A stretch of 64,000 bases of DNA, from the NCBI RefSeq assembly GCF_008831285.2, contig NW_022204507.1, positions 2,402,814-2,466,813 of the forward strand, read 5' to 3'. The notes under the pieces were generated by a model, which saw nothing but the letters and a program-made list of their open reading frames with translations, was not told where the DNA came from and made no database searches. Below, one piece after another: positions 109-33,303 of this stretch; position 1 is the stretch's first letter, and the number at the start of each line of letters is the position of its first letter. A program made the position numbers and the translations under genes. This DNA is from Nymphaea colorata. Its lineage: Eukaryota > Streptophyta > Magnoliopsida > Nymphaeales > Nymphaeaceae.

Positions 109-3100
109 ATGACAGAAGATTCAAGCGTCGGAACCACCACCAGAGTGGTAGAAAAAATTATCGTGCAGGAGCAACCAAGCCCTGCAAACAAGATTACTTC
201 TGTACTTCTAAATGGCAGCAACTATTTGGCTTGGTCCAAATCGGCGATGCTCTATTTAAGTGGCAGAAACAAGCTGGATTTCGTGACCGAAGATCTTCCA
301 AGACCTGCTGAAACAGATCCGACTTATAGAGAATGGCGATCCACCAATCATCTCATAATGTCCTGGTTAATTAACTCTATGGAGCCTAAAGTCGCACGAG
401 GATTCTATTTCGCAGAAACTGCTCATCAAATTTGGAGAAAGGCAAAAGACCTCTATAGTGAAAAAAATGACATTGCTCGTATGTATCAATTCTCTCAAGG
501 TATTCGGGATCTCAAAAAGCACAACAAAAATTTTGGTGACCTGCTAGGCGACATCCAAGGTATGTGGGACGAACTTGACTATCTTATGGATATGTCTGCT
601 ACACTTAGATCTCGAGAAAAGTTGCGTGAACAACAAAAAATTTTTGAGCTTCTTGCGACTCTTGGCCCAGAGTATGAACCCATCCGAAGCCAAATTTTAA
701 TGTCCCTGGAGCTTCCTTCTCTTAGCACTGTTTGCTCAATTCTTATGAGAGACGAATCCAGAAAAAAGGTTATGTTTCAAAATTCTGATTCTTTTAAAGA
801 GAACTCTAGCAATATAGAACAGGTTGCCTTCTATGGAGCCGATAAAAGCAGTGAACATAAATGGAAGAATCGTCCAAAACGATTTTGTTCTCATTGCAAA
901 AAGGAGGGTCATACCAAGGAAAGGTGTTGGTTCCTCCACGGAAAACCCACCACCATGAGGACAGAAAAAAGAGAGAAGGGGAGCACCACTACCGTAGCCA
1001 ATGTTGCAACCAAAACTCTTGATACTTCGGATCTTCCTCAGCTGCTGAAAAAAATAAACGAACTGCTGAAAAATGTCAAGAATCACGATGATAAAGAACA
1101 TCAAAACAGTACGGCAGCTTCAGCAAGTGCTACTGGTAACGCTTTTACTTCACTCAAATCTGATTATTGGATTGTCGATTCTGGAGCTAGTGATCATATG
1201 TCTATGAACTGCCATAACCTTAGTAATTATTCTTCTATGACTAGAAAAAAATCTGTTGTTATTGCTAATGGTTCTTCTATGCATGTTCAAGGAGAAGGAG
1301 AATTAGATATTCTTAGAAATGGTGCTAAATCTAAAGTGCTCTATATGCCAGATCTCTCGACCAACTTGTTGTCCGTTTCAAAAATTGTTAGAGATTTAAA
1401 TTGTCAAGTTATTTTCTCTCCCACTAACGTTGTTTTACAGGACCCTATATCGAAGAGGAAGATTGGTGAGGGAACTCACGAAAACGGGCTATATATGCTG
1501 AAAATCAATGAATATGCCTTGACTGCCCAAATCAACCAAGAAGGTGAACTTTGGCATCGGAGACTTGGTCACCCATCACATCGTGTTTTGAATGTTTTGT
1601 TACCAAATTTGAATTATGACTCTCATGTTTGTGAAACTTGCAAGTATGCTAAAATGTCTAGACTTCCATTCCATGAATCTTTAAACAATGCTATGTTTCC
1701 TTTTGATCTTGTTCATACCGATGTATGGGGGCCGGCTCCCGTGAAATCTTACTCAAATTTTCGGTATTATCTCACTTTCATTGATGATTTTTCAAAAAAC
1801 ACTTGGATTTATCTATTAAAAACCAAGGATGAAGTTTTTTCAAAATTTCTAGAATTTTACAAAATGGTCGAAACTCAATTTGCAACTCGTATAAAATGTC
1901 TCAGATCCGACAATGGTACGGAATATAAAAACCAATTCTTTGAACAATTCAAAAAGGAGAGCGGGATGGACCATCAATTCACCTGTGTAGATACACCCCA
2001 ACAAAATGGGGTGGCAGAACGAAAAAATCGTCATCTTCTAGAAATGACTAGGTCTTTACTATTTGATATGAATGTTCCTAAACATTTTTGGAGTGATGCA
2101 GTTTTGACAGCATGTTATACTATCAATCGCACACCCACAAGAATTCTTGCTGGAAAAACTCCTTTGGAAGCCCTCATGAAAAGGAAATTTAAAGTGGACC
2201 ACATGAGAATTTTTGGATGCACTGTCTATGTCAAGAGTAAAGCTGCAGACAAACTCAGCCACAGAGCAAAAAAATGCATTTTCTTGGGCTACTCATCGAC
2301 AAAAAAGGGGTTCAGGTGTTATGATGTTACCGCCAAGCAGATCCATATCTCTCGCGATGTAGTTTTTGATGAAAAAAGGTCTTATTTCTCTCACGATGCA
2401 AGGCAAGGGGAGGATAGTTCCAAGCACGACATCATGGTCACACCCAACAGTCTATCATACAATGATTTTGATATCACCATAACCCATCATCGTAGTGACC
2501 TTGAAGGAAGAGAAACCGTTGAAAACCTTGAAACTGATCCTAACAGTACAGAAGTCTCTTTTGAGCCTCAAGCAGATCAAAGCAATGAAATTGGAGCTAT
2601 AGATCCTATTGAACCTTACTTGGAAACTTTAGAATCTCACCCGTTTGAACCCACTCTAAGGAGATCTTCTCGAAACATTCAGCCACCTAGACATTTGAAA
2701 GACTTTGTCACCAACATCGCTGTTTCTCATCCTTTGGAAAAATATTTGAGTTATAGCAATCAACCCAAACACCATGTGGCCTTCCTTAGTCGCATTGAAA
2801 AACAAAAAGATCCTACTACATACCAAGAAGCCAAAGACCAAAAAATATGGGTTGAAGCCATGCATGAAGAGCTAGATGCTCTCCACAAAAATCGTACATG
2901 GGAACTTGTAACTCTTCCAGTGGGAAAACATGCCGTTGGGTGCAAATGGATTTTCAAAACCAAGTACAAGAGCGATGGCTCCATTGAACGCCACAAGGCA
3001 CGCCTGGTTGCTAAAGGGTATACTCAAACACAAGGGTTAGACTATGAAGAAACTTTTGCTCCTGTTGCAAAAATGACTACCATCAGAATTCTCCTATCAA

Positions 3101-4356
3101 TTGCTTGCAATTTTGAATGGCCCTTGTTTCAATTAGATGTGAAGAATGCTTTTCTACAAGGCGACATTCAAGAAGAAGTATATATGAACCTGCCACCAGG
3201 CCATCTTATGGAATGCACTCCAAGTCTTGTTTGCAGACTCAAGAAGTCGATTTATGGATTGAAGCAATCTCCTAGAGCCTGGTATCAAAAATTGAGTGAT
3301 GCATTGGAAAACAAAAAATTCATCAGATGCTACTCAGATAATTCAGTGTTTATCAAGAGATCAGACGATAAAATTGTTGTTGTATTGATTTATGTGGATG
3401 ACATAATAATTACAGGCAACGATGAACAAGAGATGGATCACACAAAGTGGTATCTTCACAATACGTTTGAAATCAAAGACTTGGGGAGACTAAAGTACTT
3501 TTTGGGAATCGAAGTTGCTAGATCCAAGAAAGGTATCTTTCTAAACCAACGGAAGTACATACTTGATTTACTTAAAGAAACGAGGAAAACAAGTATCAGA
3601 CCAGCAGATACGCCCATAGAAGTCTACCCTAAACTTGACAATACCAAGGATGAATCTATTGAAAATGTGACAAGCTATCAAAGACTTGTGGGTAAATTAA
3701 TCTATCTTACGGTCACACGACCTGACATCAATTATGCCGTCAGTCTGGTAAGTCAACATATGCATTCGCCTAAAGCAGTTCATGTCAAAGCTGTGGAAAG
3801 AATTCTCAGATACTTGAAGAAGACTCCAGGACAAGGTTTGTGGTACAAAGTGAATGGGCATGTTAACATACAAGGTTACTCAGATGCAGACTGGGCTGGT
3901 GCTTCAGATAGAAGATCGATGACAGGTTATTGTGTGTATGTTGGTGATAACCTAGTTTCTTGGAAAAGCAAAAAACAACACACTGTTTCTAGATCCAGTG
4001 CTGAGGCTGAATACAGGGCAATGGCGACTACCTCAAGCGAGCTCATTTGGATAAAATCACTCATCCAAGAACTTGGATTTGTTTTCAAGTCTCCCATTCC
4101 AATGCACTGTGACAATCAAGCTGCAATTCATATAGCAGCAAATTCAGTTTTTCACGAACGCACCAAACATATAGAAATTGATTGTCATTATGTACGTGAA
4201 AAGGTCCAAAAAGGAGAGATTGAAACTCCATATACTAGAAGCACAGAGCAGCTGGCCGATGGATTTACTAAGGGACTTCCTACAAAGCAATTTGACGATA
4301 TTAAAAGCAAGTGGGGCTGTTTGAATCTCTACGCCCCACTTGAAGGGGAGTGTTGA
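109..4356 (+). CDS. copia gag-pol polyprotein (1415 aa)
   Basis: A single uninterrupted frame encodes all proteins for copia transposition in virus-like particles. The gag part has an N-terminal UBN2-like region containing NYLAWS and a CX2CX4HX4C zinc knuckle at residues 260-273. The aspartic protease motif DSGA is at 357-360. A GAG-pre-integrase HHCC region begins near H483 and ends with a CX2C pair. The integrase triad reads D538, D601, E637, with 35 residues between the last two. Reverse transcriptase carries YVDD at 1095-1098 and RNase H carries SDADW with D1259 and the AEAEY motif near 1300. The start at 109 is the first ATG of the frame and the encoded N-terminus looks like gag. The stop lies 6 bp inside the 3' LTR. 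No frameshift or stop is seen, so it could be functional if the 5' LTR is intact. Lineage within copia was not assigned. Confidence 0.95.
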   Translation: MTEDSSVGTTTRVVEKIIVQEQPSPANKITSVLLNGSNYLAWSKSAMLYLSGRNKLDFVTEDLPRPAETDPTYREWRSTNHLIMSWLINSMEPKVARGFYFAETAHQIWRKAKDLYSEKNDIARMYQFSQGIRDLKKHNKNFGDLLGDIQGMWDELDYLMDMSATLRSREKLREQQKIFELLATLGPEYEPIRSQILMSLELPSLSTVCSILMRDESRKKVMFQNSDSFKENSSNIEQVAFYGADKSSEHKWKNRPKRFCSHCKKEGHTKERCWFLHGKPTTMRTEKREKGSTTTVANVATKTLDTSDLPQLLKKINELLKNVKNHDDKEHQNSTAASASATGNAFTSLKSDYWIVDSGASDHMSMNCHNLSNYSSMTRKKSVVIANGSSMHVQGEGELDILRNGAKSKVLYMPDLSTNLLSVSKIVRDLNCQVIFSPTNVVLQDPISKRKIGEGTHENGLYMLKINEYALTAQINQEGELWHRRLGHPSHRVLNVLLPNLNYDSHVCETCKYAKMSRLPFHESLNNAMFPFDLVHTDVWGPAPVKSYSNFRYYLTFIDDFSKNTWIYLLKTKDEVFSKFLEFYKMVETQFATRIKCLRSDNGTEYKNQFFEQFKKESGMDHQFTCVDTPQQNGVAERKNRHLLEMTRSLLFDMNVPKHFWSDAVLTACYTINRTPTRILAGKTPLEALMKRKFKVDHMRIFGCTVYVKSKAADKLSHRAKKCIFLGYSSTKKGFRCYDVTAKQIHISRDVVFDEKRSYFSHDARQGEDSSKHDIMVTPNSLSYNDFDITITHHRSDLEGRETVENLETDPNSTEVSFEPQADQSNEIGAIDPIEPYLETLESHPFEPTLRRSSRNIQPPRHLKDFVTNIAVSHPLEKYLSYSNQPKHHVAFLSRIEKQKDPTTYQEAKDQKIWVEAMHEELDALHKNRTWELVTLPVGKHAVGCKWIFKTKYKSDGSIERHKARLVAKGYTQTQGLDYEETFAPVAKMTTIRILLSIACNFEWPLFQLDVKNAFLQGDIQEEVYMNLPPGHLMECTPSLVCRLKKSIYGLKQSPRAWYQKLSDALENKKFIRCYSDNSVFIKRSDDKIVVVLIYVDDIIITGNDEQEMDHTKWYLHNTFEIKDLGRLKYFLGIEVARSKKGIFLNQRKYILDLLKETRKTSIRPADTPIEVYPKLDNTKDESIENVTSYQRLVGKLIYLTVTRPDINYAVSLVSQHMHSPKAVHVKAVERILRYLKKTPGQGLWYKVNGHVNIQGYSDADWAGASDRRSMTGYCVYVGDNLVSWKSKKQHTVSRSSAEAEYRAMATTSSELIWIKSLIQELGFVFKSPIPMHCDNQAAIHIAANSVFHERTKHIEIDCHYVREKVQKGEIETPYTRSTEQLADGFTKGLPTKQFDDIKSKWGCLNLYAPLEGEC
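4342..4350 (+). promoter_or_regulatory. polypurine tract of the copia element
   Basis: The tract GAAGGGGAG sits immediately before the TGTTGAAA start of the 3' LTR. This is the usual place for the plus-strand DNA primer. It is also read as codons at the end of the polyprotein. Confidence 0.85.
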
Positions 4357-15538: not shown

Positions 15539-15541
15539 TAA
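15539..15541. repeat. TAA target-site duplication, left copy
   Basis: TAA directly precedes GGGCCCGTTTGATGG; the same TAA follows the right terminus at 18591-18593. A 3-bp TTA/TAA duplication is the hallmark of PIF/Harbinger insertion. Confidence 0.8.
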
Positions 15542-15724
15542 GGGCCCGTTTGATGGGCAGGAAAAATCCTATAGCAGCAGGAAAAAAATTCAAATTTTTA
15601 AAAAATTTTCGGTTTCATCAAATGCGGAGATTTTTTTGGAGCCGTTAAACCCGTTTCCGAAAAAAAAATTCCGGAAACATGTTTCCACCTCGAGGGGTGG
15701 AAACATATTTCCGGGTATATTTTT

Positions 15725-16680
15725 TTGCCCGTTAGGGCTCGCGTCTTCCTGCCGCTGCCTCTCGCGTCTTCTTCCTGCCGCTGCCCCGTGTCTTCCTCCT
15801 GCTGCTGCCTCATCGTTCTCAACCTACTGCTGCGCTGCTGCTGCTTCAATCCCCTGGCCATCTCTCGCACTCTCTTCGGCCTTCTCTTTGTTTCTCTCTC
15901 TGTCTCGCTTTGGTGTTTCCATCGTCGCTATTCTTGGCACCCACAAACAATTTGAAGGCAACATCGCTATCGGACCTCCATATTCCCCCTGTTCACTGGA
16001 TTGTTCTCGTCGCAGGCAGGTAACTTTGCTGCTACCGATTTTCTCTCTGCCCTATTATTTCCCCTTTTTAAGCTACTGGCTATCGGACAAGTTTTGGCTT
16101 TATTCTTTTCCACTTGACAGTTTGCTTTGTTTTCCCCAAATCGACATGTTTCATTATTTTCCCCCTGTTCGCTGTCTCGTTTTGGCATATGGATAGCATT
16201 GAAAATTGGTAATCAACAAGAAAATGATTTACTGTGGTGAGATTACAGTCATGGTGCCTACCATATGTGACCAACTTCCTGCTTCTTCAACGCTCTGCCT
16301 AACCTCTGTCTCTCGCTCCCTCTGTCTCCCTCCCTTTGTCCACAAGCAAACACGCCGATCCTTCCCTCTCTCTCCCTCCCTCTGTCTCTCCCTCTGTCAT
16401 CTCGCCCTCTCACTCTCTTCCTCCCCTTGTGGTCTATGTCGCCCTCTCACTCTCCTGCTCCCCTCGTCGTCTCTCTCGCCAAGAAACTCAAGAACAAGTC
16501 TTCCCTCTCTTCCTCTCTCGTTCGTGCATCAAATCCATGTGGGGAAACACGGATTTAGGCAATTTAATCCAATTCTGAAAGTATCTTGTGGCTCGCCCTG
16601 TTACCCAGGTCAGGAAAGAGAAAGAGAGAGGACGATGATCCCGGAGAGAAGGAAAATCACGTGGCTTTCTCTGTAGGTGA
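15725..16680 (+). other. C/T-rich interior of the PIF/Harbinger-like element, possibly captured leader sequence
   Basis: The segment is rich in CTG/CCG and CTCTC runs and carries splice-like sites (for example GCAG/GTAACTTTG at 16017-16024). Several open frames exist but they are low-complexity and do not resemble a known protein. Composition differs clearly from the AT-rich flanks, which fits capture of a promoter-5' UTR region of a gene, but I cannot name a source. Confidence 0.35.
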
Positions 16681-17264
16681 GGGAAATTTTGAATTTTTTT
16701 TCCCTGTTTGTCTTTGATTTTCCCTATTGTGAATAATCGGGATTCATTTCCCTTTCCAAGCGAAAACCATTACTTGCTTTCCCAAAGTTTCCTTGTAATT
16801 GCATACATTGTATACATCTGTTAGTTGCCTTGTAATTGCGATTTCTGTGTGTCTTTTTGCACAAAACGTCTGGAAGTACTTCTAATAGCTTAGTGCTCCT
16901 GTAGAGAGTTTAGAATCAGGTGTTTCTGTAGTAACTGATGCTCGTTTCGAGGTTAGGATGATGGGTTATGCGGAGTATGGGGCTGGGCAAGGTCCAAATG
17001 TCTGGCCTGAGCTGGTTGTGCTGTCTGCATGAAACATGGTTCCCCTTGGGAGCATGTTGTGTCAAGCATTTTAACACGGGCATCATTATAATTCCTTGTT
17101 CTTTTAAACCTTTTCATGTTGGTATTTGAATTTGTAAATATGATTTTTATCCCATCTTTATGTGTATCTGTTTCACTTGACTGCATGTTTGATTTATATT
17201 GTAATATTACTTGCTACAAAATTACACTTTAAAGATGCATGGTTTTATTCTCTCTCAAGACAAC

Positions 17265-17539
17265 AGAGGGAGGAATTTTTGTGCAGAACGAAAGTGTTAT
17301 TTCAGGGGGATAGGTCTTTATTCTCCAAGATGGATAAGCTAAATAATGTTCGTTCAAATGTAATGTTCTTGTTTTTCCTTGTGTTGAACTAGGAGTCATG
17401 AAATTGGAAGCAACAAAATTTCGACCAAGAGAGGTTGTGAAGCATGTACTGCAGACTGCTGTTGCGTCCTTGAGAAAGGAGCTCACTTTGGAAGGATTTG
17501 TAAAACCTCAAGTTCCAATTGAGGTTAGATCAGTATCTG
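17265..17539 (+). repeat. 275-bp tandem duplication, copy 1
   Basis: This block is followed immediately by a second copy at 17540-17814. Both copies encode identical peptides on both strands and no difference was found on reading them side by side. Each copy holds intron-like sequence and one exon-like segment. Confidence 0.95.
17393..17523 (+). pseudogene. captured exon fragment of a plant hybrid histidine kinase (AHK1-like), copy 1
   Basis: The translated piece contains [14 protein letters not shown] and [11 protein letters not shown] recognise this as the linker between the phospho-acceptor and ATPase domains of plant hybrid histidine kinases of the AHK1 type, membrane osmosensor-like kinases of two-component signalling. 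It is bounded by an intron-like acceptor (TTGAACTAG) before GAGTCATG and a donor-like GTTAGA after ATTGAG, so it looks like one exon with flanking intron, copied from genomic DNA and not from mRNA. No kinase domains are present, so it cannot encode an active kinase. Family recognition is from memory of the motif. Confidence 0.65.
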
Positions 17540-17814
17540 AGAGGGAGGAATTTTTGTGCAGAACGAAAGTGTTATTTCAGGGGGATAGGTCTTTATTCTC
17601 CAAGATGGATAAGCTAAATAATGTTCGTTCAAATGTAATGTTCTTGTTTTTCCTTGTGTTGAACTAGGAGTCATGAAATTGGAAGCAACAAAATTTCGAC
17701 CAAGAGAGGTTGTGAAGCATGTACTGCAGACTGCTGTTGCGTCCTTGAGAAAGGAGCTCACTTTGGAAGGATTTGTAAAACCTCAAGTTCCAATTGAGGT
17801 TAGATCAGTATCTG
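17540..17814 (+). repeat. 275-bp tandem duplication, copy 2
   Basis: Direct repeat of 17265-17539 with no spacer. Copy 1 runs straight into AGAGGGAGGAA of copy 2, and copy 2 runs into TGAAAATGG, the unduplicated flank. Confidence 0.95.
17668..17798 (+). pseudogene. captured histidine kinase exon fragment, copy 2
   Basis: Second copy of the exon-like segment described at 17393-17523, with the same intron-like acceptor and donor on either side. No base differences were noticed between the two. After this copy the sequence leaves the duplicated block and no further kinase-like exon follows. Confidence 0.65.
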
Positions 17815-18590
17815 TGAAAATGGACATATTCTCAGTGTTGAATTTCATAATCCTGTCATCAAAACTATGCTGGCAAAATGTTCCAACTTTTTGTTGTAAA
17901 TGTGATGTATGTGCAACTAGAAGATTGTCCATGTTACAAATTTTCTTTACGTCAACAACATCTGCAACTGCTCCATTAAATAAATGGTCAGTGTCATGTT
18001 TTTACATTACCTCTTAGTTTTAAGCACAGTTTCTTTTTCTTCTAAGCTTTTTATGATTAGTATGCAACCATTTCATGACTGCCTGTAACATGGCAACCCT
18101 TGAATTACTTGAGTTTCCAGTTCCATGGTAGCCCCTAGTCATGGTAGCTCCTCGGATCCTTTTCATCTAATCACACACAGGTGCTCTCTTATTGCCTGAC
18201 CATTCGGGTAGTGCGTCATCAGGAAACCTGTCCCAAGCCTACCTTTATATTAAAACTGCTAAGATTTAACACAAATGGGTTTGACGTAGTGGCTCTTTCA
18301 ATGGAAAGCAGATAAATACTTACGTTTGGATTTTTATGAACATTTCTCTCTGCATAAACCAAAGCAGGAAATAAGTTTCTTATATCAAACTAAGAAATGT
18401 ATTTCTGGAAATCTGGAAATATGTTTCTTAAAAATCAAACACAGAAATATGTTTCTGGAAATATATTTCCTAGTTATCACACACTCACCAAAATGAGAAT
18501 CGAAAATATTTTTCTCATTCTCTTTTTCCAGGAAATATATTTCCAAAAATATATTTCTAATTCCATAATTCCATGCCATCAAACGGCCCC

Positions 18591-18593
18591 TAA
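18591..18593. repeat. TAA target-site duplication, right copy
   Basis: Matches the TAA at 15539-15541. On the minus strand this is the Leu codon TTA of the interrupted gypsy reading frame, present once on each side of the insertion. Confidence 0.8.
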
Positions 18594-32784: not shown

Positions 32785-33302
32785 CTATTGTCTGCACAAT
32801 GGTTTACTACGTGACTGAGATCTGGGTAACCCATGGCCAGCCAAAGAACCAACCCCAGACCTGCCACAAGAGACTTCCACCTCCTCACAGTCATCATCGA
32901 CGTCATCATCATCATCCTTCACATAGAAGCCGTCACCATCATCCTCCTCCACCATCTTCAATATCCTCTCAAACACATCAGCATCACATGGAATCCTCAG
33001 GACTCCTTCATTCTGGAACCCAAACTCTTCTTCCGCCTCCTTCAAAAGCTCAACAAATGCGTAGTGGCTCAGATAGTCTGTGGGGATGATGAACCTCTTC
33101 ATCTCCTTCCCTGCGCACACAGCAAGGTACCCTTTGGGCACGTCCCCCATCCTAGAGGCGTCAGAGAAGGACAGCGTCCTCTTCAAGAAGCTTATGCCCT
33201 TTTTGCCACTGTTTTTTGGCGCGTTTGCTAGCTTTCTCCATTTCTTGCCAAGCTGTTGCAGGCGCACAATGTCTCTGATCTTATTAGGTTTCTTGGAATC
33301 CA

Positions 33303-33303
<1 letters not shown>
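32785..33303 (-). CDS. SAUR-family auxin-responsive protein (172 aa), intact
   Basis: SAUR proteins are small plant-specific proteins, mostly auxin-induced. Many promote cell expansion by inhibiting PP2C.D phosphatases and so activating plasma-membrane H+-ATPases. Here the SAUR domain spans about residues 54-119 with the signatures VPKGYLAV, KRFIIPTDYLSH, EEEFGF and VLRIPCDADVF. The basic N-terminus (NKIRDIVRLQQLGKKWRKLA) resembles the longer SAUR37/38-type members of Arabidopsis. An acidic run (about 120-142, mostly Asp/Glu, GAT/GAC-rich) and a Ser/Arg-rich tail follow. The gene has no intron, as usual for SAURs. The ATG at 33303 fits the conserved N-terminus and directly follows a CA repeat. 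A TATA box and an AuxRE lie upstream. No defects are seen, and it is the best candidate for a working gene here. Whether the tail is typical is uncertain. Confidence 0.93.

Follow-up and report, generated by a model that had tools for sequence, protein, structure and literature searches.

What kind of DNA is a 3-kb segment that carries a histidine kinase exon between short inverted repeats, where did the exon come from, and how was it acquired? The segment occupies positions 15542–18590 (3049 bp) of the window, the whole 64-kb stretch of Nymphaea colorata DNA analyzed here, and is called the C15 element after its contig. An earlier note, made from the sequence alone, had read it as a Pack-type PIF/Harbinger-like element with a captured host kinase fragment. 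We hold it to be very probable that the C15 element is a non-autonomous gene-carrying (Pack-type) PIF/Harbinger transposon, a reading supported by its TAA target sites, empty sites, inward-facing terminal inverted repeats (TIRs), an association with PF13359 and a donor gene free of TIRs.

Termini and Target Site

The TIRs that the earlier note had placed at the two ends were borne out. They match at 14 of 15 positions, the extended arms are 83% complementary across 23 bp, and the pair constitutes the sole two matches (≤2 mismatches) in the window, compared with a mean of 0.01 in shuffled sequence. The terminal features are as follows.

15539–15541: TAA, left copy of the target site duplication (TSD)
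15542–15556, plus strand: left TIR GGGCCCGTTTGATGG, located by a mismatch-tolerant scan
15542–15933, plus strand: left end region, 79–81% identical to five family elements and 91% to the copy on C8
18223–18590: right end region with repeated palindromic GAAATATRTTTC-like motifs, common to the family
18576–18590, minus strand: right TIR (GGGGCCGTTTGATGG on the minus strand), one mismatch relative to the left TIR
18591–18593: TAA, right copy of the TSD, from flank comparison and empty sites

As proposed, TAA is present on both sides and directly abuts both TIRs, giving the 3-bp TWA duplication of PIF/Harbinger elements. The TIRs are short and begin with GG/GGG, a feature common to the transposase-bearing relatives; GG-rich ends are typical of the PIF/Harbinger superfamily. 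Palindromic subterminal motifs are likewise present near both ends, including a repeat at 15660–15725 inside the left end region, and the last 222–224 bp of the right end are 92–95% identical to five other elements.

Gene capture is a classic trait of the Mutator and CACTA superfamilies, and the bases CACTA happen to sit just before the left TIR, which might suggest a Pack element from another superfamily (Mutator, CACTA, or hAT). However, the only TSD is TAA, and longer duplications do not fit: flanks of 8 bp (as in hAT), 9 bp (as in Mutator), and 10 bp mismatch at 4, 7, and 9 positions, respectively. Pack-MULE and Pack-CACTA elements differ from PIF elements in their TIRs, target duplications, and transposases; here, the TIR ends differ from those of CACTA, and the TIRs adjoin matches to PF13359, the sole transposase family searched. 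Membership of another superfamily is therefore a very improbable reading.

Elsewhere in the genome, the right flank of the C15 element gave 39 scored matches (40 of 300 candidates scored); it belongs to a dispersed repeat that, judged by eye, is probably an LTR retrotransposon. In all nine of the 39 paralogous loci that were examined, the sequence continues through the insertion point, which is a single TAA in eight loci and TAG in one. Overall identity of these empty-site relatives is 76–85%. Eight have 25–27 gap positions away from the insertion point, and the alignment of the ninth (L058) covers 165 bp only. The C15 element is an insertion into this dispersed repeat.

Two other open frames were observed in the window. 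Positions 109–4356 hold an uninterrupted frame of 1415 residues that, judged from its translation, looks like a polyprotein of the Ty1/copia type. A 172-residue frame on the minus strand (32785–33303) looks like what we take to be a SAUR auxin-responsive gene.

The TIR Family and Its Associated Transposase

The left 15-mer occurs exactly 247 times in the genome (407.8 Mb), whereas a reversed control occurs 0 times. Recurrence of the two TIRs as a unit elsewhere had been set beforehand as a test of the transposon reading, and such units were found as inward-facing pairs: among 100 listed TIR places, 12 neighboring pairs lie less than 10 kb apart, 10 of them inward, one outward, and one tandem.

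We compared these 100 listed TIR places with the places of PF13359 (DDE_Tnp_4), taken from a profile search of the genome in which the best 150 of 307 candidates were scored. With the 59 PF13359 places listed on contigs C1–C5, 14 pairings within 5 kb, involving 11 distinct transposase places, lay on the inner side of a TIR and zero on the outer side, compared with a chance expectation of 0.18. In one related element (C8:7148827–7153072), the TIRs are of this type, with 3 and 2 mismatches; TAA flanks it at either end, its right end is 94% identical to that of the C15 element, and it contains a transposase remnant (PF13359, E 1.7e-8). The evidence for the transposase thus consists of one remnant-bearing element and the coordinates of other PF13359 matches, and it associates a PIF-type DDE transposase, the candidate mobilizer, with these TIRs by genome position only. 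Such a transposase, supplied in trans, would recognize the TIRs and the subterminal repeats, and the unit would move by cut-and-paste.

The C15 element itself was described as lacking a transposase, with which our searches agree. Of 19 open stretches (≥75 amino acids) overlapping it, 10 were covered by a Pfam scan (E ≤ 0.1), and none of these 10 contained a transposase; their single weak match (IL33_bt, E 0.068) lies under its cut-off. Likewise, no PF13359 match within the element was present among the 150 scored candidates.

The Kinase Fragment and Its Donor

The kinase exon lies where the earlier note had placed it, with AG and GT borders, and is part of a larger host-derived module.

16976–18199, plus strand: host module 2, an AHK5-like intron-exon-intron fragment including a 275-bp duplication, from its match to C4
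17265–17539, plus strand: 275-bp perfect tandem duplication, copy 1 (100% identity)
17393–17523, plus strand: captured kinase exon, 131 bp with AG/GT borders, encoding 43 residues
17540–17814, plus strand: 275-bp perfect tandem duplication, copy 2 (100% identity)
17668–17798, plus strand: second, identical copy of the kinase exon, from sequence comparison

The exon is present twice because the 275 bp around it are duplicated head-to-tail, a feature that had been overlooked. Module 2 (element positions 1435–2658) matches C4:17495679–17496643 on the minus strand with 93–95% identity. Reading frames around this match at 17.49 Mb form a complete-looking hybrid histidine kinase, in which a HisKA exon (PF00512) precedes the matched piece and a receiver exon (PF00072) follows it; the 43 captured residues adjoin the HisKA match, lying just after and outside it. 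The donor gene sought by the earlier note is thereby located on a separate contig, and no TIR within 3 mismatches was found in 13.5 kb of the donor region. The earlier note had also named as refuting a locus at which the kinase piece would adjoin a complete kinase gene without the TIRs; in its within-genome form, covering the empty sites and the separate donor, this test went in favor of the transposon. Because intron sequence flanks the exon on both sides, the source of the capture was genomic DNA and not mRNA, as had been proposed.

The designation “AHK1-like kinase” stands as far as the histidine kinase is concerned, but AHK5-like fits better, judged by a receiver domain comparison in which AHK1 was not directly included. 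Among solved structures only (best 60 of 98 matches), the donor receiver domain scored 121.8 bits with “Histidine kinase 5” from Arabidopsis (PDB code 4euk) and 50.9 bits with the next match. By the criterion of the receiver domain, the donor would be the AHK5 orthologue, and we refer to it as AHK5-like. In the genome, a DNA search with the exon returned only C15 (twice), C8, C9 (partial), and the C4 gene; a protein search returned C15 (twice), C4, and C8, with C9 not detected. The 43-residue translation alone gave no match in Pfam or PDB.

Copies of the Captured DNA

Two further copies, at C8:6547630–6550355 and C9:20838316–20841015, carry the same modules between different flanks. The C9 copy has TTA on both sides; in the C8 copy, TAA is present at the right, and the left end is ragged. 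In an alignment of the donor with the C15, C8, and C9 elements, 18 sites unite the three elements against the donor, from which they also differ by common deletions of 8 bp and 5 bp. At the level of sequence comparison, these changes show that a single copying event took up ∼1 kb of intron-exon-intron DNA, which then spread and now resides at three sites. Between C15 and C8, 12 of 721 sites differ (K2P 0.017), and the two lie at distances of 0.0515 and 0.0520 from the donor, to which identity is ∼95% over 949 compared sites; the C9 distances are too large because the first C9 block is misaligned. With a donor elsewhere, a cargo multiplied together with the unit, and no transposase found, the element has the properties of the Pack-TYPE class.

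Compared with the donor, only silent changes (five) were seen in the C8 exon, whereas the C15 exon shows three that alter amino acids in addition to four silent ones. The three amino acid-altering changes are private to C15, and because all three of its private changes are protein-altering, the exon looks unconstrained. Part of the exon is lost from the C9 copy, and, with an exon length of 131 bp, two tandem copies would break the frame. A working kinase function of the exon pieces is unlikely, and they would represent passive cargo.

The three amino acid changes found in neither C8 nor the donor, together with an interior that is decaying, could also be reconciled with a segment that is not a transposon at all but a kinase pseudogene in decay, or a segmental duplicate, whose inverted repeats arose by chance. 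This explanation has next to no probability in view of the empty sites, the copies elsewhere with different flanks, the abundance of the TIR compared with its reversed control, and a donor that lies elsewhere and lacks TIRs. A regulatory fragment, for instance one giving rise to a small RNA or a chimeric transcript acting on the AHK5-like gene, would be in keeping with the retained splice borders and the high identity to the donor. Nevertheless, the protein-altering nature of all private C15 changes, the partial loss of the C9 exon, and the frame-breaking 131-bp tandem unit argue against it, and we consider such a role improbable. Under the favored reading as a Pack-type PIF/Harbinger transposon, a later tandem duplication and deletions would have remodeled the C15 copy.

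A Second Host Module

The interior to the left of the kinase module contains a second host module, overlooked in the earlier note, and two further segments.

16141–16298: segment also found at C1:38856097 (92%), with 115 bp at C5:24039457 (95%)
16363–16607: TC-rich segment; its relatives include many dispersed copies as well as the C3 and C6 elements
16612–16978, plus strand: host module 1; its source lies on C2, ∼3 kb upstream of an exon (17.60 Mb) with a GAGA_bind (PF06217) match

Module 1 matches two pieces within C2:17604621–17605251, and the GAGA_bind exon (E 4.2e-17) follows downstream on the same strand. The gene at C2 is presumably of the BPC type. A TATA-like sequence and a CAG|GTGAGG border at the C2 locus, both recognized by eye, suggest that the C2 stretch may comprise the 5′ leader and first intron of the GAGA_bind gene itself. 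The earlier note had proposed a protein comparison for 15725–16680; the scanned stretches gave no protein match, but the right part of this interval belongs to host module 1.

About 930 bp of the C2 stretch are also present in elements at C3:17.83 Mb and C6:21.74 Mb, in both of which no kinase piece was found. The left breakpoint of module 1 is common to C3, C6, and C15, and its right breakpoint to C3, C6, and C8; in C15, the module is shortened by deletion relative to C8, C3, and C6. We infer that module 1 was probably captured before the kinase piece. This order is read from shared breakpoints and not from perfect units because the C3 and C6 elements are degraded, C3 retaining the right TIR only and C6 none at its own ends (≤3 mismatches). 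Host DNA would accordingly have been taken up stepwise, first from the GAGA_bind gene region and second from the AHK5-like exon.

For the remaining interior (15934–16607), no donor emerged, the genome matches being only the C8 copy, dispersed repeats, and two loci. The 158-bp segment at 16141–16298 may be a short repeat or an additional piece of captured host DNA; no TIR (≤3 mismatches) was found at its C1 and C5 relatives in 3.0 and 2.8 kb, respectively. A search of a plasmid collection gave no match.

Sister Elements with a Glycosyltransferase Fragment

Five sister elements (C4:9195691, extending to 9198440; C2:26081426; C10:8663333; C2:22412258; and C2:25523514) share their end regions with the C15 element and measure ∼1.8–2.75 kb. 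Both TIRs (≤3 mismatches) were found in three of the five and the left TIR only in the other two, with C2:25523514 scanned in part. Three sisters match a gene at C3:22.26 Mb with 95–97% identity, and the other two match the interior of the C4:9195691 element with 95–99%. Since two sister copies are 99% identical, their spread looks recent.

The gene at C3:22.26 Mb contains a glycosyl transferase 2 (GT2) piece (PF00535, E 5.8e-5) and matches cellulose synthase subunits (E 3.5e-8); we take it to be CSLC-like. A stretch of 306 bp of its coding frame is absent from the C4 and C10 sister elements. Intron loss, and with it an RNA source of the GT2/CSLC-like fragment, was considered and rejected, as the missing 306 bp lie inside the open coding frame of the donor. 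A stretch of ∼251 bp between two coding pieces, probably an intron, is retained in the sister fragment. The 306-bp gap being a deletion and the probable intron being kept, the GT2 fragment also derives from genomic DNA.

Route of Capture

How the host DNA entered the elements is open to two explanations, for which the edges of the kinase module are informative.

18199–18219: imperfect direct repeat (21 columns), right partner, located at the right-hand edge of the captured kinase DNA

According to the published Pack-TYPE model, two neighboring elements that flank a host sequence fuse and move as one unit (PMC8903248, in the portion of the article available). Fusion around the kinase piece would account for captured DNA that is internal and for element ends that are conserved. 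In contrast, no internal TIR remnant (≤4 mismatches) was found in the C15, C8, and C9 elements, or in any of the five elements scanned, and no TIR lies near the donor. The model, as set out in that portion, lets remnants be deleted or mutated (PMC8903248), and we retain fusion as a tentative possibility, somewhat below an even chance.

Alternatively, a break within an element may have been repaired by copying donor DNA as a template, leaving a short flanking repeat. The donor is still in place, internal TIR remnants were not found, and in C8 the kinase module lies between the two partners of an imperfect direct repeat (element positions 1475–1494 and 2339–2359; 18 matches, 2 mismatches, and one gap); the left partner was also recognized in C9, though not in C15. 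Against templated repair, an unfilled acceptor was not found. The repeat was spotted by eye first and tested afterward: its score was reached by none of 2000 single-base shuffles and 1 of 5000 dinucleotide shuffles, but 14 of 2616 window pairs drawn at random within C8 reached it as well, so that the repeat is a weak hint for templated repair and no proof. We put templated repair at about an even chance.

Taken further, the C15 element may belong to a serially capturing PIF lineage that copied pieces from at least three host loci (near a GAGA_bind gene, AHK5-like, and GT2/CSLC-like) by repair from donors that persist, and not through the fusion of adjacent insertions, leaving a short direct repeat as a scar; we advance this as a speculative reading, with a little over one chance in three.

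Relation to Known Elements

The earlier note regarded PIF/Harbinger elements with captured signaling genes as less often described, a view not upheld by the portions of two reports available. In 2008, Benjak et al. reported the capture of exons and introns by PIF elements of grapevine (PMC2528002), and Pack-PIF elements of maize and rice, among them a subgroup that had taken up a second gene piece, were described by Gisby and Catoni in 2022 (PMC8903248). Among the matches listed in our literature search, no report of histidine kinase capture by PIF elements was found.

Similar to the C15 element, Zm-Pack-PIF cluster #18 and other maize and rice Pack-PIF elements are described as non-autonomous, with 15-nt TIRs, TSDs that are mostly TTA/TAA, internal host gene fragments, and, in a subgroup, a second piece (PMC8903248). 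The 72 elements of group B in cluster #18 have a mean length of 535 bp and a gene piece of 163 bp, to which four of them add another of 58 bp (PMC8903248, in the portion available), whereas the Nymphaea element is ∼3 kb long and holds ∼1-kb genomic pieces from two loci, with three copies found. Pifvine-3 also carries captured exons and introns, some common to several copies, and its TSDs are mostly TAA or TTA; in contrast to the Nymphaea element, in which no transposase was found, the DNA captured by Pifvine-3 is described as part of a long 5′ region next to those of ORF1 and the transposase (PMC2528002, in the portion available). The transposase-free movement of gene fragments further resembles Pack-MULE and Pack-CACTA elements of rice and Arabidopsis, as they are presented in the available part of the 2022 report (PMC8903248).

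The C15 element is therefore a clear and traceable example of a kind of element that is already known. Because donors, one-module elements, and two-module elements coexist in one genome, the order and the breakpoints of capture can be read directly. For annotation, the exon copies are a warning, since they can be miscalled as kinase gene models. The published model of gene acquisition by TIR transposons rests on cluster examples, and the stages that survive in Nymphaea allow this acquisition to be put to the test.
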